Of a DNA stretch of 24,654 nucleotides, positions 5,730 through 20,096 are shown piece by piece. The stretch is from Candidatus Alcyoniella australis. GTDB taxonomy: Bacteria; Lernaellota; Lernaellaia; JAVCCG01; Alcyoniellaceae. The stretch lies in contig JAVCCG010000078.1 in assembly GCA_030765605.1 (NCBI GenBank), positions 1 through 24,654 of the forward strand, given 5' to 3'. How positions within the stretch are numbered: the stretch's first letter is position 1; every line of letters begins with the position of its first letter. The notes below the pieces were generated by a model. That model was not told where the DNA came from, did no database searches, and worked only from the letters and a program-made list of their open reading frames with translations. A program made the translations under genes and the position numbers.

Positions 5730-5755
5730 CTAGCTAGATTGGCAGGAGTATGGCC

Positions 5756-6376
5756 ATGGTTTCTCCTTTAAGACAACAGCGTGATTACGACCGCAAGGAG
5801 AACACACGCCAGGATCTGCTTAACGCTGCCATCGATGTGTTCTACGACAAGGGTTATCATCGCAGCCTCATTTCCGACATTGTTGCTCGAGCAGGCGTTG
5901 GTCAGGGCACCTTCTATCGTCACTTTAAAAGCAAGCGCGACCTGATCGACGCCATCATGGACCGGTTTGGCCAAATGCTGCTGAGCCAGTTCGAGTTCAT
6001 GACAGTCAACCTACCCTCCAATGCCGATGAGTACCGCGATGCCAGCATGAACGCTGTGATGGCCATGGCGGTCCTGGCGGAAAAGAATCGCAAGCTGGCC
6101 CTGCTGCTGCGGGAAGCTCCCACCGTCGATCGAGAGTTCGAGCAGCGCACCAACGATCTTTACGACCAGCTTGCCGGCCTTGCGGCCTTTTATCTGGACC
6201 ACGCCGTTTCCCAGGGCTTCGCCCGGCCCTGCAACACGGCCATCGTCTCCCAGGCCATTGTGGGCATGGGACTGCGCCACATGACAATGTGGCTCAACGA
6301 CGAGCACAACGCCGTGGATATCCACAAACTGATAACCGAGCTGGTGGATTTCGCCTTCTTAGGTTTTGGGGCCTGA
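5756..6376 (+). CDS. TetR/AcrR-family transcriptional regulator
   Basis: 206 residues from the second ATG. Residues 15-60 are the TetR DNA-binding domain: an 'R..LL.AA..VF...GY' helix, then ISDIVARAGVGQGTFYRHF with the recognition helix, then the KSKRDL turn. The C-terminal ligand-binding half is mostly helical and not assignable to a ligand. Two ATGs lie six bases apart; the first (5750) is only one base from AGGAG and the second (5756) is 7 bases away, so the second is preferred. It lies 52 bp upstream of the activase-GRE gene on the same strand and probably represses this unit, responding to the GRE substrate, product or a related toxic compound. Confidence 0.88.
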   Translation: MVSPLRQQRDYDRKENTRQDLLNAAIDVFYDKGYHRSLISDIVARAGVGQGTFYRHFKSKRDLIDAIMDRFGQMLLSQFEFMTVNLPSNADEYRDASMNAVMAMAVLAEKNRKLALLLREAPTVDREFEQRTNDLYDQLAGLAAFYLDHAVSQGFARPCNTAIVSQAIVGMGLRHMTMWLNDEHNAVDIHKLITELVDFAFLGFGA

Positions 6377-6428: not shown

Positions 6429-9400
6429 ATGTCCGTACAGGGCCAGCATCCTTTAAAGCAAAGCGTCTCCGGTCATCCAGCAAATAAAAAACAAGGCCTT
6501 GGCAAAAACAAGCTCAGGGTCCTGACAATACAGCGCACGTGCGTCCATGACGGCCCGGGCATTCGAACAACAATTTTCTTCCAGGGGTGCGCTTTGCGAT
6601 GCCTGTGGTGCCAAAATCCCGAGTCGTTTTCATTGAACCCTGATATAGCGCTTGACAACGATTATTCGATCCCCGAGATCGCAAAAATCGTCTTGCGGGA
6701 TAAAGATTATTACTTAAAAACAGGCGGCGGCGTAACTCTGAGCGGTGGCGACCCGTTGCTGCAGGATCCCGCTGCCCTGATTTCTCTGTTGAAATTATTG
6801 AAAAAAGAGAAAATACACGTTGCGGTTGAGACATCCCTCCACGTGCCATGGAAAAATGTCGCAAAGCTGGCTCCATACATCGATCTGTTCCTGGTTGACC
6901 TGAAGCTTGTCGGTGATGAAATACTGCATAAGAAATACACAAAACAAAACACCAGATTAATCCGCAGCAATATCAAGAATCTGATCGATCTGAAAGCCAA
7001 CGTCAAATTCCGCATGGTGATGGTGCCGGGCTACAACGATAGCCAGCGCGATATCATGGCCGCTGCCAAATATTTGAAGTCGGTGAGCCATCGCTCGATA
7101 GAGCTGCTGAAATACCACAACATGTACGAGGACAAGGCCAAGCAACTGGGCCTGGAGCTGGAGACGCTCAATATTACAAACGATCAGGCCTTGGCTTCCG
7201 TTAAAAAAGCAGTGGAGCTTTTCAAGAAAAAAGGCATCAAAGCCGCATGCCTTGACCTTGATTCGTCAAGGCACCAGGCCGTTTTCCCCCAACGCGTTTA
7301 CGATATACAAAATGCGATCAGGGAAAGCGACTACGAGCTATGCTTTGAGGTTGCCCGACTCAAGACCGAGTACTACAAGCGCAACGGCTTTGACAAACCC
7401 AACCCAGTGCATCGCGCCGAGCGCCTGGATTATGTGTTGTGCAAAAAAGAAGTACTTATCTATCCCCAAGAACTGCTGGTCGGCAACTTCACCTCTAAGC
7501 GCCGCGGCTCGCAGCCCTGGGAGGAATATTCGGGCGCTGTCTTCGGCATGATCCTGCACCATATCGACCGCCAGGATCCGATCCCCTTCAAGTGCTCGCG
7601 GGAAGACAAGATCGATTTCTACAAGGACATCTTGCCCTTCTGGCTCAAGCACGGCCTGCTTACTCACGCCTTTGATTCGTTTAACGGCTACGCCCAGTAC
7701 TTTGCGCGGGCCTCGGAAATGAATACGGGCTTTAACAACAACTTGGCCGGGATCGCGCACTTCATAGTCAACTACGAGCGGCTTCTCGAGTTGGGGACCA
7801 GCGGTCTGATCGAACAGGTCGAAATCAAGCGCCGGGAACACCCGGAGAACGACCAGGACTTCTACGACGCCCTGATCATCGCCCTGCGTTCCCTGGAGAG
7901 CTGGGCCCAGAACTATGCGGACAAACTCTCCGAGCTCAGCCGCCGGGAGCCCGATCAGCGGCGACGCGCCGAGCTCGAGCAGTTGGCCGCCATCTGCCGC
8001 CACGTGCCGCGCAACCCGGCCCGCACCTACCACGAAGCCTTGCAGTGCATGCTGTTCCTGCACATCGCATTGTGCATCGAGTCTTTTGAGAACGCCGTTT
8101 CCCCCGGACGCCTGGATCAGATCCTCAACCCCTACTACGAGCGCGACAAAGCGGCCGGCATCATCGACTACGAACGGGCCAAGGAGCTGCTGGCGCTGTT
8201 TATCCTCAAGATGGACGAGGCCTTCCTGGTCAACGACGGCGACACTTACCTACGCGTGGGCCGACTGTTCGAGACCATGTCCACAGACCAGACCGTGACC
8301 GCCGGCGGCCTGGGTCGCGATGGCAAGGACGCCACCAACGACCTGACCTACGCCCTGCTCGACATCTGCGAGTTGCAACCCTACGCGGTGAACATGACCG
8401 CCCGCATCCACCCGGACAGTCCGCAGAAGTACCTCGACCGGCTAGCCGAGGTCTACATCAACGGCTCACCCATGCCCGCGTTGTACAACGACGAGCTGTA
8501 TCTCGAGACCCTGCAACGGCACTACGACACCACGATCGAGGATGCTCGCAACTACGCGATCGTCGGCTGCGTGGAGCCCAACGCCTCGGACGACCACTAC
8601 GGCAACACCGACTGCGCCAACATGAACGTGGTGCTGCCCATGCTCCAGGCGCTCAAGGGGCAAGAGGACGACCTGTGGCACTTCGACCTTCCCAATCGGC
8701 TGGAGAAGATGACGACCAAGGCTGTTGAGTACAACTTCGACGGCGATGGCAAGGTCTCCGAGTTCGTCAACTCGCGCTACAACCGGCTGCGGAAGGTCTA
8801 CAAGAAGGCGCGGGCCAAAAAGATCAACCCGCCGCAGAGCATGGACGAGCTGCTCGAGCGCTTCCAGCGCCGCCTGAATTGCCTAGCGACCTCGGTTCTA
8901 ACCGATCACCAGCGGATCGAGAAAATGATCAGCGAGCAGTTCACCACCCCGCTGACCTCCTCGCTCTCGCGTAACTGTCTCGAGACCGGCAAGGACGTTA
9001 ACCAGGGCGGCGCCAAGTTCAACAGCTGCGGAATCCAGGCAGTGGGCATCACCGACGCGGCCGACTCGCTGCACACCGTCGACCAGCTGGTGTTCAAGCA
9101 AAAGCTCTACTCGATCGAGGAGATCATCGAGGCCATGGACGCCGATTTCGTTGGCGAGAAAAACCAACAGATCCGCGAGGCGCTGCTGGCAGTGCCCAAA
9201 TTCGGTCAGGACGACTCACAGGAGGCCGTCGACTGGGTCAACCGCACCCTGGAGATCTACAACAACGCCCTGGACCAAGTGCCGGGTTGCCCGCGCAACG
9301 GCCGCTACTCGGCGGGCTACTACGCACTGAACGTCAACGACGTCTACGGCAAGAAGACACCCTCCCTGCCCTCGGGTCGGATGAGTGGTGTGCCGTTGGC

Positions 9401-9767
9401 CAACAGCATCACGCCCCACTACGGCATGCAGAGTAGCGACCTGCTCTCGTCGCTGAACTCGGTTGCCGGAGTGGACTACGTTAAGTACGCGCCCAACGGC
9501 ACCACCGTGACCTTCACCATCGACTCGGCATTGTTCCAGGGCCCCGATGGGGTTCGAAACCTCTCGAGTATATTTAGCACCTTTTTCAAGAAAGGCGGCA
9601 TGCAGATCCAGCCCAACGTGATCAACCGTGAGATATTGCTCGACGCCTACGATCATCCGGAGAAATACCCGTATCTGCTGGTGCGCGTCGCTGGTTACTG
9701 TGCCTACTTCAATCATCTTTCCGATGATTTGAAGAAGATCATCATTAATCGGACCTGTTATTGTTAA
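6429..9767 (+). CDS. Fused radical-SAM activase and glycyl radical enzyme
   Basis: One uninterrupted frame of 1112 residues. Residues 30-280 are a PFL-activase-like radical SAM domain: TCVHDGPGIRTTIFFQGC, the cluster motif C54-x3-C58-x2-C61, GGGVTLSGGDPLLQ (99-112) and DLFLVDLKL (152-160). It lacks the two extra ferredoxin clusters of the longer activases. Residues 286-1112 are a complete GRE: substrate-barrel start at FPQRVYDI, the thiyl-radical loop GCVEP with Cys714 and Glu716, and the glycyl radical motif RVAGY with Gly1089 near the C-terminus. GCVEP resembles the glycerol/diol dehydratase and choline lyase branches rather than pyruvate formate-lyase, so a dehydratase or C-X lyase is likelier; the substrate cannot be read. 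Normally activase and GRE are separate proteins. The linker is only about ten residues. GGAG lies 9 bases before the ATG. Confidence 0.9.
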   Translation: MSVQGQHPLKQSVSGHPANKKQGLGKNKLRVLTIQRTCVHDGPGIRTTIFFQGCALRCLWCQNPESFSLNPDIALDNDYSIPEIAKIVLRDKDYYLKTGGGVTLSGGDPLLQDPAALISLLKLLKKEKIHVAVETSLHVPWKNVAKLAPYIDLFLVDLKLVGDEILHKKYTKQNTRLIRSNIKNLIDLKANVKFRMVMVPGYNDSQRDIMAAAKYLKSVSHRSIELLKYHNMYEDKAKQLGLELETLNITNDQALASVKKAVELFKKKGIKAACLDLDSSRHQAVFPQRVYDIQNAIRESDYELCFEVARLKTEYYKRNGFDKPNPVHRAERLDYVLCKKEVLIYPQELLVGNFTSKRRGSQPWEEYSGAVFGMILHHIDRQDPIPFKCSREDKIDFYKDILPFWLKHGLLTHAFDSFNGYAQYFARASEMNTGFNNNLAGIAHFIVNYERLLELGTSGLIEQVEIKRREHPENDQDFYDALIIALRSLESWAQNYADKLSELSRREPDQRRRAELEQLAAICRHVPRNPARTYHEALQCMLFLHIALCIESFENAVSPGRLDQILNPYYERDKAAGIIDYERAKELLALFILKMDEAFLVNDGDTYLRVGRLFETMSTDQTVTAGGLGRDGKDATNDLTYALLDICELQPYAVNMTARIHPDSPQKYLDRLAEVYINGSPMPALYNDELYLETLQRHYDTTIEDARNYAIVGCVEPNASDDHYGNTDCANMNVVLPMLQALKGQEDDLWHFDLPNRLEKMTTKAVEYNFDGDGKVSEFVNSRYNRLRKVYKKARAKKINPPQSMDELLERFQRRLNCLATSVLTDHQRIEKMISEQFTTPLTSSLSRNCLETGKDVNQGGAKFNSCGIQAVGITDAADSLHTVDQLVFKQKLYSIEEIIEAMDADFVGEKNQQIREALLAVPKFGQDDSQEAVDWVNRTLEIYNNALDQVPGCPRNGRYSAGYYALNVNDVYGKKTPSLPSGRMSGVPLANSITPHYGMQSSDLLSSLNSVAGVDYVKYAPNGTTVTFTIDSALFQGPDGVRNLSSIFSTFFKKGGMQIQPNVINREILLDAYDHPEKYPYLLVRVAGYCAYFNHLSDDLKKIIINRTCYC

Positions 9768-9870: not shown

Positions 9871-12099
9871 ATGAACTCCAATACCAGCCGCACCATTTTT
9901 CTGATGCTGGCTCTGCTCGCGATTGCTTGCGCCGCGTGTAATTTCGGATGCGCCAAGGATCAAGACGATTCTGGAAACGACGATAATAATGACTCCGGCG
10001 ACGACGACTCCAATGACGATGACGACGATTCCTTTCCCTTTATCGCCGCGGTTGATCCATTGCAGTGGAAACGCTATTCCTGCCCAGCCCAGCCAAGGGA
10101 GGGCATCACAATCGTCACCGGCAATTTCAATATCCACGGCGGCAAAGAGGGATCGCCCGAGGAAATCGGCCGGGCCCTCGCTGCTTACGGCCCGTTTGAT
10201 ATGTTTTCCTTGCAGGAATGCCCCGAGGAATATGCTCAGCCGATAGCCGAGGAACTGAGCATGTACTTCTTCTACGCTGAAGAGCAATCCCTGATGTCGG
10301 CCACGCCGCTGATCGATCCCCAACGGCACGAATACGCGGTCGCGGGCTGGGGGCGTTTTCTGCACGCAACAGTCGAGATCAAAGGCCGGGAGGTTTCCGT
10401 TTACGGCGTGCATGTGAATTGGGATGATGTCGGCGATCTGCAAAACCGCGAATTGGTCGACGACTATCTGGCCCTCGATCCGGTCGAGCGCATCCTGCTG
10501 ATGGGCGACTGGAACGAGGAATTGGGCTCCACCCAGGCCCGGATTCTGGATGAGTGCCTGGCCGATACCTGGGCGTCCCTGGGCGTTTGCCCGTCGTGTA
10601 GAACGACCTGGCCGGCTGTGATGTTCTACGGCGCGGAAGGCCAGCAGTTGATCGACAACACCTATTTCAACAAATCTTCCGGCGGCTGCGCTGTGGACGG
10701 CGAGATCATTCACCTGACGCCCAACCGCTCGGACCACAAGCCGCAGACCACCAGCGTCTTTTTCCCGGACACGGTCGGCTTCGTACCGCCGCTACTGCTC
10801 GACGTGGTTTATGGCCTGGGGCCCGAATCGATCGGACTGCTTTTCGACAAGCCGCTGGCCGACGCCCAGGTGGAGCTTTATGCCGGAGACACTGAGATCG
10901 AATTATCACACCTGCAGATCATCGGCGAGGGCACACTGGTTCAGGTTGTGGCGGCTCACGCATTGCCCACCGGCATCGAGCTGACCGCCCGCGTCCTTTC
11001 TGCCGTTGATCTCGACGGCGCCCAGACCACTCAAATCTTGGAGCTTTCCTTTCCGCTTTACGAAAATCTCGTGGAGAACCCCGGTGCGGAGCTGGGCGAA
11101 CCCGGCTGGACCTTGGATGGTATGGAGCCGTCTTCCGGGTTCAATCACGTGCTTCCCCTGGCCGGTGACAGTTATTTCTGCGGATCATTGGCCACGCTCC
11201 AAGGGCGGGCCGAGCAGATGGTCCCCTTGGCGGATTTTGCCGAGGTCATCGATGCTGGTCACGGTCTGCTGGTTTTTGGAGGAGCCTCGGCCACGGGATA
11301 CCGAATTGAGGAAGGCGGCACATCCAATATCCTGCTTCCCCATGACGAAGGCGAAGGGGTTGTGGAACTGCTCGACGAACAGGGCAATCTTCTCAAACAC
11401 ATTTCGGGGAGACGGTTCGACGTGATGTATTGGCAACCCTGGCGGGTGACGGATACGATTCCGCCCGGAACCCGTTTTGCCAAGATCATTCTACGGGCTG
11501 TGGCCGGCGAAATGCCTCTGACCTTCAACTCGACATCCTTCGATGCCCTGCACTTGTCAGTCGTGACCCTGGATAAACCGCACGAGCTGGTCGGAGGCAA
11601 CCTGGTGGCCAATCCGCTGTTTGAGGACGGCCGGGCTTACTGGAATATTCCCGCCGGTGTCATCCTGGCAAAAGATCATTTCATCCCCATCCGATCCAAC
11701 GTCAACGTCAACACGGCCACAGGCGATTACTGGCTCGGCGCGTTTTTGGTAGCACCGGAGGCAAAGACGGTTTCACAGGTTATTCCCCTCACCACCTATG
11801 CCGATCGGATCGCCGCAGGCAAGCTCGCCTTGCAATGGGGTTCGTACCTACGCACATGGAATCCGCGCTCAAACGCTGTTTTACGGCTTTCGTTCCTGGG
11901 CGATTCGGGCGAACTCTTGCAAAGCGATGAGCTGGGTCCGGTCAACATTCCCGAATGGTTCCAATACAGCAAGACCACCGCCGTGCCGACCGGCGCTGTG
12001 GCAGTACACTTCGAATGGATCGCGGCGGGCGACAGCATCGTGGCTGGGGTCATTTCATTCTTCGACGCGCCTTGGGTCTATCCCCTGACTCTGGAGTAA
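9871..12099 (+). CDS. Lipoprotein with endonuclease/exonuclease/phosphatase domain and beta-sandwich modules
   Basis: 742 residues. Signal peptide with candidate lipid-attachment cysteines at 20, 23 or 27, then an Asp/Asn-rich linker (30-53). The EEP domain (about 78-297) shows all its motifs: GNFNIHG (N87), LQE (E116), VHVNW (H181), GDWN (D213, N215) and SDHKP (D288, H289). Such enzymes cut phosphodiester or phosphomonoester bonds of nucleic acids, inositol phosphates or phospholipids with a divalent metal. Residues about 305-395 look like an Ig-like module. Two modules starting near 397 (NLVENPGAE) and 575 (NLVANPLFEDG) resemble CBM4/9-type carbohydrate-binding sandwiches. It likely sits outside the cytoplasm, bound to a glycan or the cell surface. 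ATG chosen because GGAGG lies 5 bases upstream. Placed 103 bp after the GRE; co-transcription is uncertain. Confidence 0.8.
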   Translation: MNSNTSRTIFLMLALLAIACAACNFGCAKDQDDSGNDDNNDSGDDDSNDDDDDSFPFIAAVDPLQWKRYSCPAQPREGITIVTGNFNIHGGKEGSPEEIGRALAAYGPFDMFSLQECPEEYAQPIAEELSMYFFYAEEQSLMSATPLIDPQRHEYAVAGWGRFLHATVEIKGREVSVYGVHVNWDDVGDLQNRELVDDYLALDPVERILLMGDWNEELGSTQARILDECLADTWASLGVCPSCRTTWPAVMFYGAEGQQLIDNTYFNKSSGGCAVDGEIIHLTPNRSDHKPQTTSVFFPDTVGFVPPLLLDVVYGLGPESIGLLFDKPLADAQVELYAGDTEIELSHLQIIGEGTLVQVVAAHALPTGIELTARVLSAVDLDGAQTTQILELSFPLYENLVENPGAELGEPGWTLDGMEPSSGFNHVLPLAGDSYFCGSLATLQGRAEQMVPLADFAEVIDAGHGLLVFGGASATGYRIEEGGTSNILLPHDEGEGVVELLDEQGNLLKHISGRRFDVMYWQPWRVTDTIPPGTRFAKIILRAVAGEMPLTFNSTSFDALHLSVVTLDKPHELVGGNLVANPLFEDGRAYWNIPAGVILAKDHFIPIRSNVNVNTATGDYWLGAFLVAPEAKTVSQVIPLTTYADRIAAGKLALQWGSYLRTWNPRSNAVLRLSFLGDSGELLQSDELGPVNIPEWFQYSKTTAVPTGAVAVHFEWIAAGDSIVAGVISFFDAPWVYPLTLE

Positions 12100-12534: not shown

Positions 12535-13809
12535 CTAAGCGAACGCCGCTTTTGCCGCGTCAAGGGTCTTTTCAAGCTCGGCGTCGACGTGGGCCGCGCT
12601 TATGAACCAGGCCTCAAAGGCCGACGGCGGCAGATAGACGCCTGCGTTTAGCATGGCGTTGAAAAACGCACCGAAGCGGGCTGTGTCCGTGGTCTTGGCC
12701 GAGGCGAAATCGAACACCCTGGACGTTGTGAAAAACATTGTCATCATCGACCCTACCCGGTTGATCGCAACCGGCACGCCCGCATTTTTTGCTCTTTCAA
12801 TCAGGCCCGCCTCAAGCCTCGCCCCATAGCTTTCCAGCGCGTCGTAGACATCTTGGGTGAGCAGGCTGAGCGTGGCGTATCCGGCGGCCATGGCCAGCGG
12901 GTTACCCGACAGCGTGCCCGCCTGGTAGACGGGTCCCAAAGGGCTCAAGTTGTCCATGATTTCGGCTTTTCCGCCAAAAGCGCCCACAGGCAGCCCGCCG
13001 CCGATCACCTTGCCCATGCAGGTAAGGTCCGGCGTCACGCCGAAAAGCCCCTGGGCCGAGCCGGGCCCGACCCGAAAGCCTGTCATCACCTCATCGAAGA
13101 TAAGCACGATCCCGTCTCGGTCGCAAAGCTCGCGCAGCCCCTGTAAAAACCCGGGCCGCGGCCCGATAACGCCCATATTTCCGGCAACAGGCTCAACAAT
13201 GACGGCGGCGATCTCGCCCGGGTTGTTGTCCGCAAGCGCCATCACCGATTCGAGGTCGTTGAACTGGGCTGTCAGGGTGTCTTTTGCTACGCCCGCGGTC
13301 ACGCCGGACGAATCGGGCTCGCCAAATGTCAGCGCGCCCGACCCGGCTTTTATCAAAAACGAATCGCCGTGGCCGTGGTAGCAGCCTTCGAACTTGATCG
13401 CCTTGGCCCTGCCCGTGAAGCCTCTGGCAAGCCGCAAAGCGCCCATGGTCGCCTCGGTGCCCGAGTTGACGAACCGGATCTTTTCGACGGAATTCACACG
13501 CTCACAAACAAGCGCGCCGAGCAGGTGCTCCATCTCACCGGGCGCACCGAAGCTGGTGCCCTTTTCGACGCTTTCCAAAAGCGCCCTGGTCACCTCGGGC
13601 CGGGAGTGGCCCAGGATCATCGGGCCCCATGAGCCCACGTAATCGACGTAGTCGTTGCCATCGACATCGCGCATGACAGCGCCTTTTGCCGATGCGAAAA
13701 ACACAGGCTCGCCGCCCACCGAGCGAAAGGCGCGCACAGGCGAGTTGACCCCGCCCACCAGCACCTTTTGCGCCATGTCGAACATCTTTTTAGAACTGTC
13801 CCGTCTCAT
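12535..13809 (-). CDS. hemL: Glutamate-1-semialdehyde 2,1-aminomutase
   Basis: 424 residues, normal length. A PLP enzyme that converts glutamate-1-semialdehyde to 5-aminolevulinate, the first committed tetrapyrrole precursor. Diagnostic motifs: GGVNSPVRAF near the N-terminus, NSGTEATMGALRLAR, FEGCYHGHGD, FDEVMTGFR and the PLP-lysine motif MGKVIGGGLPVGAFGG. The ATG overlaps the ahbD stop by four bases (ATGA), so translation is probably coupled. Last gene of the operon, ending just before repeat copy B. It works on the product of HemA, encoded near the other end of the same operon. Confidence 0.96.
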   Translation of the reverse strand: MRRDSSKKMFDMAQKVLVGGVNSPVRAFRSVGGEPVFFASAKGAVMRDVDGNDYVDYVGSWGPMILGHSRPEVTRALLESVEKGTSFGAPGEMEHLLGALVCERVNSVEKIRFVNSGTEATMGALRLARGFTGRAKAIKFEGCYHGHGDSFLIKAGSGALTFGEPDSSGVTAGVAKDTLTAQFNDLESVMALADNNPGEIAAVIVEPVAGNMGVIGPRPGFLQGLRELCDRDGIVLIFDEVMTGFRVGPGSAQGLFGVTPDLTCMGKVIGGGLPVGAFGGKAEIMDNLSPLGPVYQAGTLSGNPLAMAAGYATLSLLTQDVYDALESYGARLEAGLIERAKNAGVPVAINRVGSMMTMFFTTSRVFDFASAKTTDTARFGAFFNAMLNAGVYLPPSAFEAWFISAAHVDAELEKTLDAAKAAFA

Positions 13810-14882
13810 CTACCCTCCCGGCGCTTTTTCGGCTCATAAACGCAATACGGCTCTTCGGCGAAATAATCGCCTGTGGCGGCAAATGCCCTTGCGCGACAAC
13901 CGCCGCAGACCTTGCGAAACTCGCAATAGCCACACTTGCCCTTGTAATTTTCCCAGTCACGCAATTTGAGAAAAAACTCGCTTTCCCGCCAGATCTTCTT
14001 AAACGACAAGCCGCTTTGAAGCAGGTCACCTGCCTCCTCTTCCGCAAACCCGCACATCTGCACCTTGCCCACGTGGGATATGAACGCGAAGCTAAGCCCG
14101 CCCATGCAGCCTTTGCTCATGGCGTCCATGCCATGGGTCTCGACCGTGACGCTGCGGCCCGCGGCGCGCTCTTTTTGGCGAAAAATCCGGTAGTAATGGG
14201 GCGCGCAGGTCGGCTTGAAATTCAGCGGCAGATCGCCCCGCCTTTCGTAGATCCATACGAGCGTTTCCTCGTACTGCTCCGGGGTGATGGCAAGGTCGGC
14301 CATCTGTTTGCCCCTGCCTGTGGGCACCAGCAAAAACGGGTGAAACGCCACAGCGCCAAGGCTGACCGAAAGATCGAGGATCTCGGGAAGCCGGTCCAGG
14401 TTTACCTTGCTCACCGTGGTGTTGATCTGAAACTCAAGGCCCACCTTTTTCGCGTTTTCGATCGCGGTCATGGCCCCGTCAAATGCGCCCACAACCCCGC
14501 GAAAAGCGTCGTGGCTTTTGGCGTCGGGACCGTCGAGGCTGATTGAGATGCGCTGTATCCCGGCGTCTTTGAACTCCTTTGCCTTTTTCTCGGTCAGAAG
14601 CATCCCGCAAGGGGCCATGACCATCCGAAGGCCCAGCGATGCGCCGTAACGGGTGATTTCGAGAATGTCGTCTCGCAGCATCGGCTCGCCGCCGGTCAGG
14701 ATGATGATCGGCTTTGCAAACGATGCGATGTCGTCCATCACCGCCTTGATCTGATCCGTGTCGAGTTCGCCCGCATAAGGGCCCTTGCAGGCGGCGGCGC
14801 GGCAGTGCATGCATTCCAGCACGCACGAGCGGGTCACCTCCCATGCGATCAGCCGCGGGATGAAAGCATCGTGTTCTTTCAA
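13806..14882 (-). CDS. ahbD: Heme b synthase, radical SAM (AhbD)
   Basis: 358 residues. Radical SAM enzyme of the siroheme-dependent pathway that oxidatively decarboxylates two propionates of Fe-coproporphyrin III to the vinyl groups of heme b. The cluster motif is C20-x3-C24-x2-C27 in [15 protein letters not shown], followed by [11 protein letters not shown]. The C-terminus carries a SPASM-like auxiliary cluster region (GCMGG..., [23 protein letters not shown]). TTG is the start: it overlaps the hemB TGA by four bases, and the first in-frame ATG falls inside the cluster motif, so no ATG start is possible. AhbD is told from AhbC by the '[14 protein letters not shown]..' pattern and by lacking AhbC's N-terminal extension. 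Confidence 0.92.
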
Positions 14883-15859
14883 CGGCCGCCCCGGATCAGG
14901 GCCGCAGCCTCCATGGCGAAGTAGGTGAGGATAATCTGCGCGCCGGCTCTGCGGATCGATATCAAAGACTCCATCATGGCCCGCTCGCCGTCCAGCCAGC
15001 CCCGCTCGGCTGCGGCCTTTATCATGGCAAACTCGCCTGACACGTTGTACGCGGCGATGGGCAGCTCGAACTCGTCGGCTGCGCGGCGGATCACGTCGAG
15101 ATACGGCAGCGCCGGTTTGACCATGACGATGTCGGCTCCCTCGTCGATGTCAAGGGAGATTTCCCTTATCGCCTCGTCCAGGTTGGCCGGGTCCATCTGG
15201 TAGGACCGCCGGTCCCCGAACGCCGGGGCCGAATCAGCGGCCTCTCGAAACGGGCCGTAAAACGATGAGCAGTACTTGGCCGAATAAGCCATGATCGCCT
15301 TGTCCACAAACCCAGCGTCGTCCAGCGCCTCTCGTATCACGCCCACCCGGCCGTCCATCATGTCCGAAGGCGCCACAATGTCCGCTCCCGCATCCGCATG
15401 ACTCAGCGCTGTCCGGGCCAGCAACGGCAACGTCGCGTCGTTGTCAACGGCGTTTTGCTCGATCACGCCGCAATGCCCGTGGCTGGTGTACTCGCAAAGG
15501 CACACGTCGGTAATCACGGTCAGGTAGGGCACGGCTTTCTTGATGGCCCGCACCGCGCTTTGCACGATCCCGTTATCGTCCCATGCGCCCGAGCCGTTAT
15601 CGTCCTTGGACTCGGGGATGCCGAACAGGATCACAGCCGGGATGTCGAGCGATTGGATCTTTTCGCATTCGGCGGCGATCAGGTCCACCGACATCCGAAA
15701 GCATCCGGGCATGGCCCCAATGGGCTCGCTTATACCCCTGCCCGGCCGAACGAAAAGCGGCATGACAAGGTTGTCGCAGCTTATGCGGGTCTGGCGCACC
15801 ATCCGCCTTATGTTCTCGCTGATCCGAAGCCGTCGCAGCCGCTCGACTGGAAATGGCAT
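14879..15859 (-). CDS. hemB: Delta-aminolevulinic acid dehydratase (porphobilinogen synthase)
   Basis: 326 residues, family length. Condenses two 5-aminolevulinates to porphobilinogen. It shows the zinc-type metal site [14 protein letters not shown], the first active-site lysine in [16 protein letters not shown] and the Schiff-base lysine in [10 protein letters not shown]. The ATG directly abuts the ahbB TAG, with GGAGG 8 bases upstream. It lies between ahbB and ahbD, an arrangement also seen in sulfate-reducing bacteria where hemB travels with ahb genes. Confidence 0.96.
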
Positions 15860-16336
15860 CTAATCGTCCTCCGAAAAATAGCGCATGCTGGTGCGCTTTA
15901 GCTCTTTTATTGAAAACAAAACCTCGTATCGTGTTTCGCCCGTCTGATTTGCGATCTTTTCGGCCACGGCCAAAACCTCATCGCGGGTCCGACCGTGTAT
16001 CATCGCGTAAAGGTTGTAAGGCCAGTCGATAATCCTGGGCCGCAAGTAGCAGTGGCTCACCTCGCGCCTTTTGGTCATGATCGAAGCGACCGCATCGACC
16101 CTGTCATCGGCCACGTCGAAAGCGGCCATGCCGTTGGCAAGATAGCCCAGATTTTTATGGCGGACCGCCATGCCGAAACGGCGCATAACACCCTCGGCCT
16201 TCATCGTGGCGATCTCGGATACGATATCCTCCTCGGACAATCCCATAATCTTCGCAAGCTTTGAATAAGGCCGGGGCTCAAGCGGCAGATCGCCCTGTAT
16301 AAACCTTATGATCTTGATGCGCTCAGCTTGCGTCAT
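15860..16336 (-). CDS. ahbB: Siroheme decarboxylase subunit AhbB
   Basis: 158 residues of the Lrp/AsnC fold: an N-terminal winged helix followed by a ferredoxin-like domain. With AhbA it removes two acetate carboxyls from siroheme to give 12,18-didecarboxysiroheme. The family patterns RRFGMAVRHKNLGYLANGMA and SHCYLRPRIIDWPYNLYAM match the heme-binding subunit I know as AhbB. The ATG at 16336 overlaps ahbA by 14 bases and has GAGAG upstream; a longer frame upstream only shadows ahbA. Which of the pair is called A or B is less certain than their membership in the complex. Confidence 0.86.
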   Translation of the reverse strand: MTQAERIKIIRFIQGDLPLEPRPYSKLAKIMGLSEEDIVSEIATMKAEGVMRRFGMAVRHKNLGYLANGMAAFDVADDRVDAVASIMTKRREVSHCYLRPRIIDWPYNLYAMIHGRTRDEVLAVAEKIANQTGETRYEVLFSIKELKRTSMRYFSEDD

Positions 16337-16793
16337 CAGCGCTCTCAAGGGTTTTAAAATCGACCTTAAGTTTGTAAAACCGCTCGGCGGGCAGGCTGTG
16401 AAGAACCAGAACGCCGGGAAGCTTTGCGATCCTTGCAAGTATCTTGGCGCGGGCCGAATCGCCCTTTGCGATCAGCGTGAACCAGACGTTGTAGCTTGCA
16501 TCGCGTAGGTAGTTGTGGGTCACGCCGTTGTATTCGTTGATCGCATCCGTGGTTTCTTCCAACAGATCGGGCGAAACCCTTGCTGCGACCAGGGTCGATA
16601 CGTACCCGAGCTTTCGCGGATCGAAAAGCGCGCCGATCCTACGGATGATTTGGCGCTCTTTGAGCGCGCCAAGACGGCGGATCACCTCTGATTCATCACT
16701 GCCCACGCGCCGCCCGATCTCGGCGTACGGAGATACGCAGATCGGAAAATCGGTCTGAATCATCTCAACGATGGCCCGGTCCAGCGCGTCCAT
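16323..16793 (-). CDS. ahbA: Siroheme decarboxylase subunit AhbA
   Basis: 156 residues, an Lrp/AsnC-like protein paralogous to its neighbour AhbB. Signature stretches: DLAIGRRVG-type winged helix (here YAEIGRRVGSDESEVIRRL), IIRRIGALFDPRKLGYVSTL and GVTHNYLRDASYNVWFTLI. It pairs with AhbB to decarboxylate siroheme. The ATG at 16793 is preferred over the GTG two codons earlier, because GGAG lies 5 bases before the ATG; this places it two bases after the ahbC stop. Lrp-like fold notwithstanding, the conserved 'THNYLR' and 'YN.WFTL' patterns point to the enzyme rather than a regulator. Confidence 0.86.
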   Translation of the reverse strand: MDALDRAIVEMIQTDFPICVSPYAEIGRRVGSDESEVIRRLGALKERQIIRRIGALFDPRKLGYVSTLVAARVSPDLLEETTDAINEYNGVTHNYLRDASYNVWFTLIAKGDSARAKILARIAKLPGVLVLHSLPAERFYKLKVDFKTLESADDAS

Positions 16794-16795
16794 TG

Positions 16796-17983
16796 TCACT
16801 CCACTGGCGCAATCTCGTCATCGGTCAAATAGCATGCCGGATCGTCGGCCCACGGGTCTCCGGTCACAGCCTCGGCCCGGGCTCTGAAGTTGCCCCCGCA
16901 CACGTTGATCCACCGGCAGTTTTTGCACCGGCCAGTAAGGTGAGGTCGCTTGTCTTTGAGCTTCATCAAAAACTCGTTTTCAGAATCTGTCCAGATCTCG
17001 GAAAAGGGACGTTTGCGCACATTTCCCAAAACGTGGTTGCGCCAGAACTGGTCCGGGTGAACGCTGCCGTTCCAGCTTACGCACCCGATGCCGCGGCCTG
17101 TGCTGTTGCCCTCGTTGTATTGCAAAAGCTCCAGAACCTTTTTTGCCCGCTCGGGATTTTCGCGGCGCAGCCTGTTGTACAGGTGGACGCCGTCGGCGTG
17201 ATTGTCCACGGTGAGCACCTCTGTGAGCCTGCCGGATTTGTGCAAAGCGGCGGTTCTGTCCATGATCAGATCCACCGCCGTCCTGGTCTGAGCATGGTCC
17301 AGGTCCTCTTTCACAAGGTCGGACCCGCGGCCGGAGTAGACCAGGTGGTAAAAGCAGACCCTGGGGATTTCCCGCTTTTCGACCAAATCGAATATCAATG
17401 ATATCTGATCGGCGTTTTTCCTGTTGATGGTAAACCGTAGCCCGACCTTGAGCCCGGCGTTGCTGCTGTTTTCGATACCGGCCATGGCCGATGCGAACGC
17501 GCCTTTTTTACCCCGGAATTTGTCGTTGACCTCTTCCATCCCGTCCAGGCTAATGCCGACATACGAAAGCCCGATGTTTTTCAGACGCTTGGCCGTGGGC
17601 TCGTCTATCAACGTGCCGTTGGTGGACAATACTGCCCGCATTCCCTTTGACACCGCGTACTCGGCAAGCTCGAAGACGTCCGGACGCATCAGCGGCTCGC
17701 CGCCTGAAAAAAGCAGCACCGGAGCGCCGAACGCGGCCAGGTCGTCGATCATGGCCCTGCCTTCGGTGGTGGTAAGCTCGCCGCCGTAGTTGGTGTCGGC
17801 GGATCGGGAATAGCAGTGAACGCAGTTGAGGTTGCAGCGACGGGTGCAGTTCCAGACCACCACCGGCTTTTTGTCGGCGGAGAATTGCAAGAGCTCGCTT
17901 GGCAGCTTATCGGACCGGCGGCCGTAGCGAAGCGCGTCCGAAGGCTCCACTGTGCCGCAATAAAGCTTGCTGATTCCTATCAT
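16796..17983 (-). CDS. ahbC: 12,18-didecarboxysiroheme deacetylase, radical SAM (AhbC)
   Basis: 395 residues. Removes the two acetate side chains of 12,18-didecarboxysiroheme to give Fe-coproporphyrin III. The N-terminus MIGISKLYCGTVEPSDALRY is a strongly conserved extension of this family. The cluster motif is C50-x3-C54-x2-C57 in CTRRCNLNCVHC, then LLFSGGEPLMR. A SPASM region closes the protein (GCVSWNG, CKNCRWINVCGGNFRARA, ACYL). The ATG shares one base with the cobA-hemD stop (TGATG); a TTG one codon earlier is possible but the family start favours the ATG. Confidence 0.93.
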   Translation of the reverse strand: MIGISKLYCGTVEPSDALRYGRRSDKLPSELLQFSADKKPVVVWNCTRRCNLNCVHCYSRSADTNYGGELTTTEGRAMIDDLAAFGAPVLLFSGGEPLMRPDVFELAEYAVSKGMRAVLSTNGTLIDEPTAKRLKNIGLSYVGISLDGMEEVNDKFRGKKGAFASAMAGIENSSNAGLKVGLRFTINRKNADQISLIFDLVEKREIPRVCFYHLVYSGRGSDLVKEDLDHAQTRTAVDLIMDRTAALHKSGRLTEVLTVDNHADGVHLYNRLRRENPERAKKVLELLQYNEGNSTGRGIGCVSWNGSVHPDQFWRNHVLGNVRKRPFSEIWTDSENEFLMKLKDKRPHLTGRCKNCRWINVCGGNFRARAEAVTGDPWADDPACYLTDDEIAPVE

Positions 17984-19518
17984 CAAAGGACCTTTCCGCC
18001 GGCGAGGTGATCCAGGATCGCCTCGATCAGGCCGGGGATTGTGTAGGTTTTCGCCTCTATGTGAATCGGGATGCCATGGTCTTTCATGGTCTTGCTGGTG
18101 ACAGGGCCGATGGATGCGAAAAGCGCCCGGCCCAAAAGCTCGGCCATGACCTCATCGCCGGCAAAGGCTGCGAAGTTTCTCACCGTCGATGAGCTTGCAA
18201 AGGTGATGATCGGCTCTTTTGCGTCCATGATTCGCGCTATGGCGTCGGGCTCTCCTTGTTCCGGAACTGTCCTGTAGGCGCAGACCTCGTCCACAATCGC
18301 CCCGGCGTGCAAAAGCGCATCGGCAAGGGCCTCCCGGGCAAGGTCGGCCCTTGGTAAAAGCACCCGTTTGCCCTTGATCGGCCCGGCTGCGATAAGCGCT
18401 TTTGCCACCGACTCGGCCACGTAGCGCTCGGGCACAAGGTCGGCCCGAATACCGATGCCCAAAAGCGCGTCGGCGGTGGCCGGTCCTATGGCGCATATCT
18501 TCGCCGAACCAAAAGCCCTTGCGTCAAGGCCCAAGTCCGAAAGCGCGCCGCTAATTGCCAAAACGCCGTTTATCGATGTGAACACCACCCAGTCGTAGGT
18601 GTGAAGCCTTGATGCTGCGCCGGCCAAAGGCTCGCCGTTTTCAGGCGGCTCGATACGAATAGCGGGAAACTCGATCACCTTTGCGCCCAGCCCGGAAAGG
18701 GTTGCCGCAAGGCCCGAGGCCTGGGCCCTTGCCCTTGTGACAACGGCGGTTGCTCCGAAAAGCGGCCGGTTTTCAAACCATGCTAGCTTTTCGCGCAGGG
18801 CCACGACCTCGCCCACAACAAAAAGCGCCGGGGGCTTGATGTCGGCTTTGCGGGCGGCGTCGACGATGGTCTCAAGCGTGCCGGTCACCGTCTGTTGGTC
18901 CGGCATGGTTCCCCAGCGGATAAGCGCAGCAGGCGTGTGGGGCTTTCGGCCGTTTTCCATAAGCGCGGCGCAGATCCTTTCCAGGTTGCGCACGCCCATG
19001 AAAAACACCAGCGTTCCGACGCCTGTTGCGATCCGGGCCCAATCGATGTCGGAGCTTTCCTTTGTTGGGTCCTCGTGGCCTGTGATTGCGGCGAAAGTGG
19101 ATGCAAGGCCCCTGTGGGTCACCGGGATCCCGGCGTAGGCGGGAACCGCAACAGCCGCGCTGATCCCTGGCACCACCTCAAAGTCCAACCCGGCCTCGGC
19201 CAGAGCCAACGCCTCTTCGCCGCCGCGGCCAAACACGAACGGGTCGCCGCCCTTGAGGCGGCAGACGCTGCTGCCCGAACGCGCCAGCTCGACCAGCAGC
19301 GGGTTGATCTGATCCTGCCGCAGGCTGTGTTGGCCCGCGCGTTTGCCCACGTAGATCAGCCGCGCGTCAGGCCGGGCGTACGCCAGCAGTGCGTCGTTGG
19401 CCAAGTTGTCGTAGACCACGGCGTCGGCCGCGGCCAGCACCTGCTTACCGCGCAGGGTCAGCAGTCCCGGGTCGCCCGGACCCGCGCCCACCAGATAGAC
19501 GGTCCCCGCTTTGATCAT
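17983..19518 (-). CDS. cobA-hemD: Uroporphyrinogen III C-methyltransferase / uroporphyrinogen III synthase fusion
   Basis: 511 residues. Residues 1-245 are the SAM-dependent methyltransferase (CobA/SUMT) that makes precorrin-2: VYLVGAGPGDPGLLTLRG, LKGGDPFVFGRGGEE, VPGISAA, PVTHRG and GTLVFFMGVRNL. Residues about 256-511 are HemD, which closes and isomerises hydroxymethylbilane to uroporphyrinogen III: VVTRARAQ, VFTSINGV, ITFASSSTVRNF and SIGPVTSKT. CobA-HemD fusions are known in anaerobes. The ATG overlaps the tetR stop by four bases (ATGA), ruling out a longer frame. Codon style changes within the gene at roughly residue 120-140, where AAAAGC hexamers cease. Confidence 0.94.
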   Translation of the reverse strand: MIKAGTVYLVGAGPGDPGLLTLRGKQVLAAADAVVYDNLANDALLAYARPDARLIYVGKRAGQHSLRQDQINPLLVELARSGSSVCRLKGGDPFVFGRGGEEALALAEAGLDFEVVPGISAAVAVPAYAGIPVTHRGLASTFAAITGHEDPTKESSDIDWARIATGVGTLVFFMGVRNLERICAALMENGRKPHTPAALIRWGTMPDQQTVTGTLETIVDAARKADIKPPALFVVGEVVALREKLAWFENRPLFGATAVVTRARAQASGLAATLSGLGAKVIEFPAIRIEPPENGEPLAGAASRLHTYDWVVFTSINGVLAISGALSDLGLDARAFGSAKICAIGPATADALLGIGIRADLVPERYVAESVAKALIAAGPIKGKRVLLPRADLAREALADALLHAGAIVDEVCAYRTVPEQGEPDAIARIMDAKEPIITFASSSTVRNFAAFAGDEVMAELLGRALFASIGPVTSKTMKDHGIPIHIEAKTYTIPGLIEAILDHLAGGKVL

Positions 19519-20096
19519 CTTTGCGCTCCTCGTCCCAGTCCGTTTTGCAGCAGCTCGAGGATCGGCTCCGGGCCTTCGACCTCCCCGTTCCCCGCGATCT
19601 GCCGTTCCACCAGCGCCCCGAGCATGCCCAGGATCAGCGACGCGGTTTGCTGTTCGCACAGCTCGCCGAAGGCTCCGGCCCGGCTTCCCTGGCGCAGCAC
19701 CGAGCACAGCAACTCGAACAGCCGTTGTTGCAGGCGTTGCAGCGACTCGTCCTCGAGCCGGCCTTTGCCCGCGCGCCACATTCGATAGAAGTCCGGGTTG
19801 CGCACCATGAACGCCTGCCAGTGGATCAGGTAGCTGCGCAGGTTGCGCCAGGGCTCGTTGCGCTCGGAGTAGGTCTGTTCGAGCAGCCGCACCAGGCGGT
19901 CGAGGCGAAAGGTCAGGGCCGCGTGGTACAGCTCGAGCTTGGAATTGAAGTTGTAGTAAAGCGTGCCCTTGGCAACGCCCGCGCTACGCGCGATCTCGTC
20001 CATCTGCACCGAGTGGAAGTCGCGCTCGGCGAACAGCCTGATCGTCGCGTCGAGGATGCCCTCCCGGCGCTCGAGCCTAGCGTTGCCCACGCTCAT
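19515..20096 (-). CDS. TetR-family regulator inside the heme operon
   Basis: 193 residues. The DNA-binding part is residues 10-55: EGILDATIRLFAERDFHSVQ, then MDEIARSAGVAKGTLYYNF with the recognition helix, then NSKLEL. The C-terminal half (WQAFMVRNPDFYRMWRAGKG...) is a ligand-binding bundle of unknown specificity. It overlaps hemC by 20 bases upstream and cobA-hemD by four bases downstream, so it is made in step with heme enzymes. The ATG is preceded at once by GGAG, too close to serve it; GTG or TTG codons at 20102 and 20129 are alternative starts. A heme- or tetrapyrrole-sensing repressor acting on the palindrome at 23756 is a reasonable inference, not shown. Confidence 0.85.
   Translation of the reverse strand: MSVGNARLERREGILDATIRLFAERDFHSVQMDEIARSAGVAKGTLYYNFNSKLELYHAALTFRLDRLVRLLEQTYSERNEPWRNLRSYLIHWQAFMVRNPDFYRMWRAGKGRLEDESLQRLQQRLFELLCSVLRQGSRAGAFGELCEQQTASLILGMLGALVERQIAGNGEVEGPEPILELLQNGLGRGAQR

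Follow-up and report, generated by a model that had tools for sequence, protein, structure and literature searches.

A single gene of Candidatus Alcyoniella australis appears to join an oxygen-sensitive glycyl radical enzyme (GRE) to its own radical SAM activase, which is ordinarily a separate protein. The question is whether the join is real and, if so, what such a protein would do and which chain its activase would act on. The gene lies in a window (the whole stretch of DNA that was analysed) of 24,654 nucleotides, and its features are collected in Table 1.

Reading frame and domain content

No internal stop was present when the frame was read from its ATG to its stop codon. The original prediction had described one continuous activase and GRE frame with a join of about ten residues, and both points were borne out: the activase fold ends near residue 274 and the GRE fold starts from 280-282. 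The motifs were also where they had been placed, with C54-x3-C58-x2-C61 in the activase, Cys714 in GCVEP and Gly1089 in RVAGY. Three Pfam families matched the 1112-residue protein, all well over their cut-offs (Radical_SAM, 49-209; PFL-like, 288-746; Gly_radical, 991-1095).

Table 1. Positions of the fusion gene, its functional elements and the neighboring genes in the window.
Feature	Position	Strand	Basis or description
TetR-type regulator	5750..6376	+	53 bp upstream of fusion gene; Pfam TetR_N
Activase-GRE fusion gene	6429..9767	+	ATG start, 1112 aa plus stop, single open frame
Activase (radical SAM) domain, residues 27-274	6507..7250	+	Pfam; structure comparison
CxxxCxxC [4Fe-4S]/SAM motif, Cys54, Cys58, Cys61	6588..6611	+	Invariant, 40 aligned homologues
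Junction between domains, ~residues 275-285	7251..7283	+	Domain limits from structure comparison; near-constant length in homologues
GRE half, residues 281-1112	7269..9764	+	PFL-like and Gly_radical Pfam; structure comparison
His444, aligned with His164 of glycerol dehydratase	7758..7760	+	Invariant; alignment
Cys714-Val715-Glu716, CXE motif (thiyl radical Cys and catalytic Glu)	8568..8576	+	Invariant; alignment; Cys714 codon at 8568-8570
Family-specific insert of ~55 residues after Cys loop, ~745-801, two predicted helices	8661..8831	+	Alignment; AlphaFold pLDDT 83-89
Gly1089, glycyl radical site in RVAGYC	9693..9695	+	Invariant
Lipoprotein-like gene	9871-12099	+	Asp/Asn-rich long stretch after signal; weak endonuclease/phosphatase match
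Heme biosynthesis cluster	12535-19779	-	hemL, AhbD-type heme synthase, hemB, second radical SAM/SPASM protein, uroporphyrinogen methylase-HemD fusion

In structure comparison, the activase half shares the fold of the pyruvate formate-lyase (PFL) activase PflA (3cb8, Z 29.9). PflA is a separate protein, and by sequence the PFLE/PFLC activase family gives the fused activase a higher score than PflA does. The score of the fusion with TIGR02494 (GRE activating enzyme) was 222 bits in one scan and 228 in another, over the curated cut-off of 174, with the match limited to profile positions 1-47 and 103-287 and positions 48-102 unmatched. The ferredoxin-type insert that most GRE activases have between the SAM motif and GGGVT was absent from the fusion, as it is from PflA; only 34-38 residues with 0-1 Cys are found there. 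The CxxxCxxC, GGGVTLSGG(D/E)P and further activase motifs were near-invariant among homologues, and by sequence comparison the fused activase domains group with one another.

The best structural matches of the GRE half were diol and glycerol dehydratases (5i2g, 9rcp and 1r8w), and 767 residues were aligned with 1,2-propanediol dehydratase 5i2g at Z 48.8 and rmsd 2.3. Gly_radical (PF01228) scored 82 bits, the RVxGY motif lies near the C-terminus, and the central Cys loop of the GRE barrel fold is present. Eight residues were invariant in the 40 aligned members, namely the three Cys of the SAM motif, Cys714, Glu716, His444, Asp728 and Gly1089. Two features set the family apart: Cys1091, close to Gly1089, where other aligned GREs have S, A or N, and the insert of about 55 residues, found in none of the other GREs aligned. 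The GRE half is near-identical in length throughout, with 831-832 aligned residues in all 20 sampled members.

None of the equivalog families fits the fusion. Scores fell below the curated cut-offs for trans-4-hydroxy-L-proline dehydratase (NF043068, 351 bits against 1100), choline trimethylamine-lyase (TIGR04394, 300 against 1050) and the PFL2-3 subfamily (TIGR01774, 502 against 678). The Cys-Cys pair of the pyruvate formate-lyase Cys loop was absent and is replaced by Gly713-Cys714. CXE is a motif common to GRE eliminases, and a His-Glu pair is essential in HypD (PMC7077986). GCVEP, which had been read as the mark of a dehydratase or C-X lyase, does group the fusion with eliminase-type GREs, and CXE together with the conserved His argues for a radical 1,2-elimination of one of these two kinds.

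Distribution, relatives and gene neighborhood

Searching for the two-domain order in other genomes, as the original prediction had proposed, recovered it in 43 aligned full-length proteins (the source protein counted in), and a contig scan of genomes yielded 48 loci, about 45 of them members of the fusion family (51-74% identity). Its hosts are anaerobes from unrelated lineages of both bacteria and archaea, represented by deltaproteobacterial/Syntrophia, Spirochaetota, Clostridia and Asgard MAGs. When whole genomes were searched, strong matches came from 3 of 7 in the source protein's class and from 17 of 155 and 9 of 46 in the classes to which a Smithella MAG and a Spirochaetota MAG belong, respectively; one clostridial order contributed 5 of 297 and one Asgard phylum 5 of 195, the last count leaving out two matches that represent a different kind of GRE. 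A missed stop or frameshift near the junction, which had been raised as a danger to the fusion, was not found: the 43 full-length proteins are in frame there with a linker constant to within one residue, and they include a 72% identical copy in a second genome of the same class.

In the partial members examined the break was a contig end, including a copy in G719 that seemingly has no activase. The exception was G099 (L152:1-1749 (-)), with an in-frame deletion of ~58 residues across the junction, either a natural variant or, possibly, a fault of assembly. Among the family members examined, none had an intact GRE half standing alone. Two Asgard loci (L141 and L142, in G636 and G672) were considered as fusions and rejected. 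There, an activase gene immediately precedes a GRE of another kind and shares its reading frame, with one TAG and one codon between them; the TAG is an ordinary stop, so these are two genes with another GRE type.

When the GRE half was placed in a GRE tree (FastTree; reference sequences partial and taken from alignments), the fused GREs formed one long-branched clade with support of 1.0. It lay next to the plasmid GRE of Acinetobacter (L092) and an orphan GRE from G006; L092 and L013 formed the sister clade, and both lack the family insert. The nearest stand-alone GREs are 33-40% identical and consist of the Acinetobacter towneri plasmid GRE (L092) and the G006 and Syntrophia orphans (L095, L154-L157). 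None of these is fused; a separate activase is encoded downstream of L092, whereas the others have no adjacent activase. Four Syntrophia genomes carry both the fusion and a stand-alone GRE at 39-40% identity, and a divergent GntR-type regulator lies beside three of these four stand-alone copies; a GntR-type regulator also lies beside the fusion there. Three of the four Syntrophia copies adjoin a gene that we read as a QueG-like 4Fe-4S protein. Across the family, pairwise distances of the two halves correlate at 0.73, and the fusion has therefore mostly been inherited as a unit.

Further unusual GRE frames were noted. Another GRE of the source genome (L153:4395-7376 (-), G000 contig C35) has an N-terminal extension of ~190 residues that in our reading resembles an SCP2-type lipid-binding domain, with no Pfam match, and L016 has a similar extension. 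GRE frames of ~1000 aa occur in several genomes.

The TetR-type gene upstream of the fusion is probably co-transcribed with it. A TetR gene also lies directly upstream of the fusion in L030 and L074, L038 has a divergent gene that is TetR-like by its sequence, and a GntR with an FCD domain lies upstream in nine loci. Across the fusion loci, no neighbor genes other than regulators recur widely, and the fusion gene is usually without a nearby separate activase or pathway genes. Other neighbors include an aldehyde:ferredoxin oxidoreductase (L057), MFS_2 transporters (some Clostridia loci), corrinoid and methyltransferase-type genes (L061/L067) and a QueG-like protein (L038). The lipoprotein-like gene and the heme biosynthesis cluster downstream in the window have no evident link to the fusion. 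Assigning a substrate from the neighborhood was rejected, as the non-regulatory neighbors are confined to single lineages and too scattered.

Predicted structure and proposed mechanism

AlphaFold models were obtained for the source protein (pLDDT 86.8, pTM 0.86) and for the 53% identical L060 (pLDDT 87.1, pTM 0.88), from alignments that were shallow and overlapping. We would expect a pTM of ~0.7, by our own estimate, if the activase domain floated freely. The values near 0.87 are higher and favor, without proving, a docked activase domain, and they do not decide between cis and trans.

Our main reading, to which we give a probability of roughly two in three (0.68), is of a self-contained GRE eliminase, with the activase domain placing the radical either on the chain it belongs to or on that chain's dimer partner. 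We hold it because both halves are complete, with the catalytic residues kept in every intact homologue; because the fused state is kept over several phyla, with near-constant GRE-half and linker lengths and halves that change together; and because of the pTM values, the CXE motif, the His-Glu pair essential in HypD, the dehydratase-like structural matches and the usual lack of separate activase or pathway genes nearby.

On this reading, the N-terminal radical SAM domain would bind a [4Fe-4S] cluster and SAM and receive an electron from a cellular reductant. The 5'-deoxyadenosyl radical so formed would abstract H from Gly1089 of its own or the dimer-partner chain. The glycyl radical would then pass to Cys714, which would take H from the substrate, and the Glu716 and His444 pair would promote loss of a neighboring leaving group (water, amine or other), with a product probably of the aldehyde or imine type. 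A more specific form of this proposal, in which activation is in cis, has somewhat less than an even chance in our judgment. The family would then be a self-radicalising GRE and a fixed machine, with the insert (745-801) and the linker keeping the glycyl domain near the SAM site and a single gene supplying any anaerobe that gains it with a new radical elimination.

Alternatives and significance

The activase domain might instead also, or mainly, serve other GREs of the cell, with the fusion mainly ensuring co-production. Some trans activation has room in the source genome, since seven GREs are encoded there but, apart from the fusion, only two stand-alone activases score over the TIGR02494 cut-off, and the related stand-alone GREs of G006 and the four Syntrophia genomes lack an adjacent activase. 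However, G006 has such a GRE and no fusion was found in that genome (84% complete), GREs and activases are generally specific pairs, and the strict length conservation and confident whole-chain model favor a fixed intramolecular or intra-dimer arrangement. We regard this alternative as unlikely.

Slightly less probable again is a diol or polyol dehydratase of the glycerol/propanediol type that has merely acquired a fused activase. The B12-independent glycerol/1,2-propanediol dehydratases, which supply the top structural matches, resemble the fusion in GRE fold (Z 44.8-48.8), CXE motif and active-site His and Asp, and the alignment pairs His164, Glu435 and Asp447 of glycerol dehydratase with His444, Glu716 and Asp728 of the fusion. 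Identity is ~31%, however, their activase is separate and they lack the insert; the fused GREs form a separate clade, nearer to stand-alone GREs without an assigned function, and as a rule no shell genes or aldehyde dehydrogenases lie nearby. In the alignment, glycerol dehydratase H281, S282 and Y339, which we take from its structure to be substrate contacts, correspond to N555, A556 and D620 in the fusion family, so the substrate is probably other than glycerol. With these positions changed, we infer elimination only from CXE, His444 and Asp728.

That only one domain is active, for example with a degenerate activase, is very improbable: the domain lacks the ferredoxin insert that most activases have, but PFL activase is active without it, the activase motifs are near-invariant and the GRE catalytic residues are all invariant. 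An assembly, frameshift or gene-model error joining two neighboring genes could draw on the common adjacency of activase and GRE genes, on the two Asgard genomes with an in-frame activase one stop codon ahead of a GRE and on the differing GC3 of the halves in the source genome (0.60 for 6429-7253, 0.83 for 7269-9764), but it is refuted by the 43 full-length homologues that cross the junction in frame with equal linker length, and the close relatives L011 and L030 have no such GC3 gap. Local recombination or gene conversion is a possible source of that gap.

The fusion is thus real and conserved, belongs to a well-known class of enzymes and is apparently undescribed. Searches of an open-access library turned up no naturally fused activase and GRE, which is weak evidence of novelty. 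The dhaB1-dhaB2 fusions were rejected as a precedent, as they join the large and medium subunits of glycerol dehydratase and contain no activase-GRE pair (PMC4777399). The original prediction would have been overturned by many known homologues with a described function; the homologues exist, while the open-access literature yielded no described function. Its candidate for something undescribed keeps that standing in the searchable literature, but it is not a single oddity, being a conserved family over several phyla.

The docking of an activase on its GRE and the exposure of the buried glycyl loop are hard to study in transient two-protein complexes. In a natural covalent pair the ratio is fixed at 1:1, and both can be tested with a single construct. 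The fusion also adds a GRE clade that reaches the Asgard archaea and may offer engineers a portable radical enzyme encoded by one gene.
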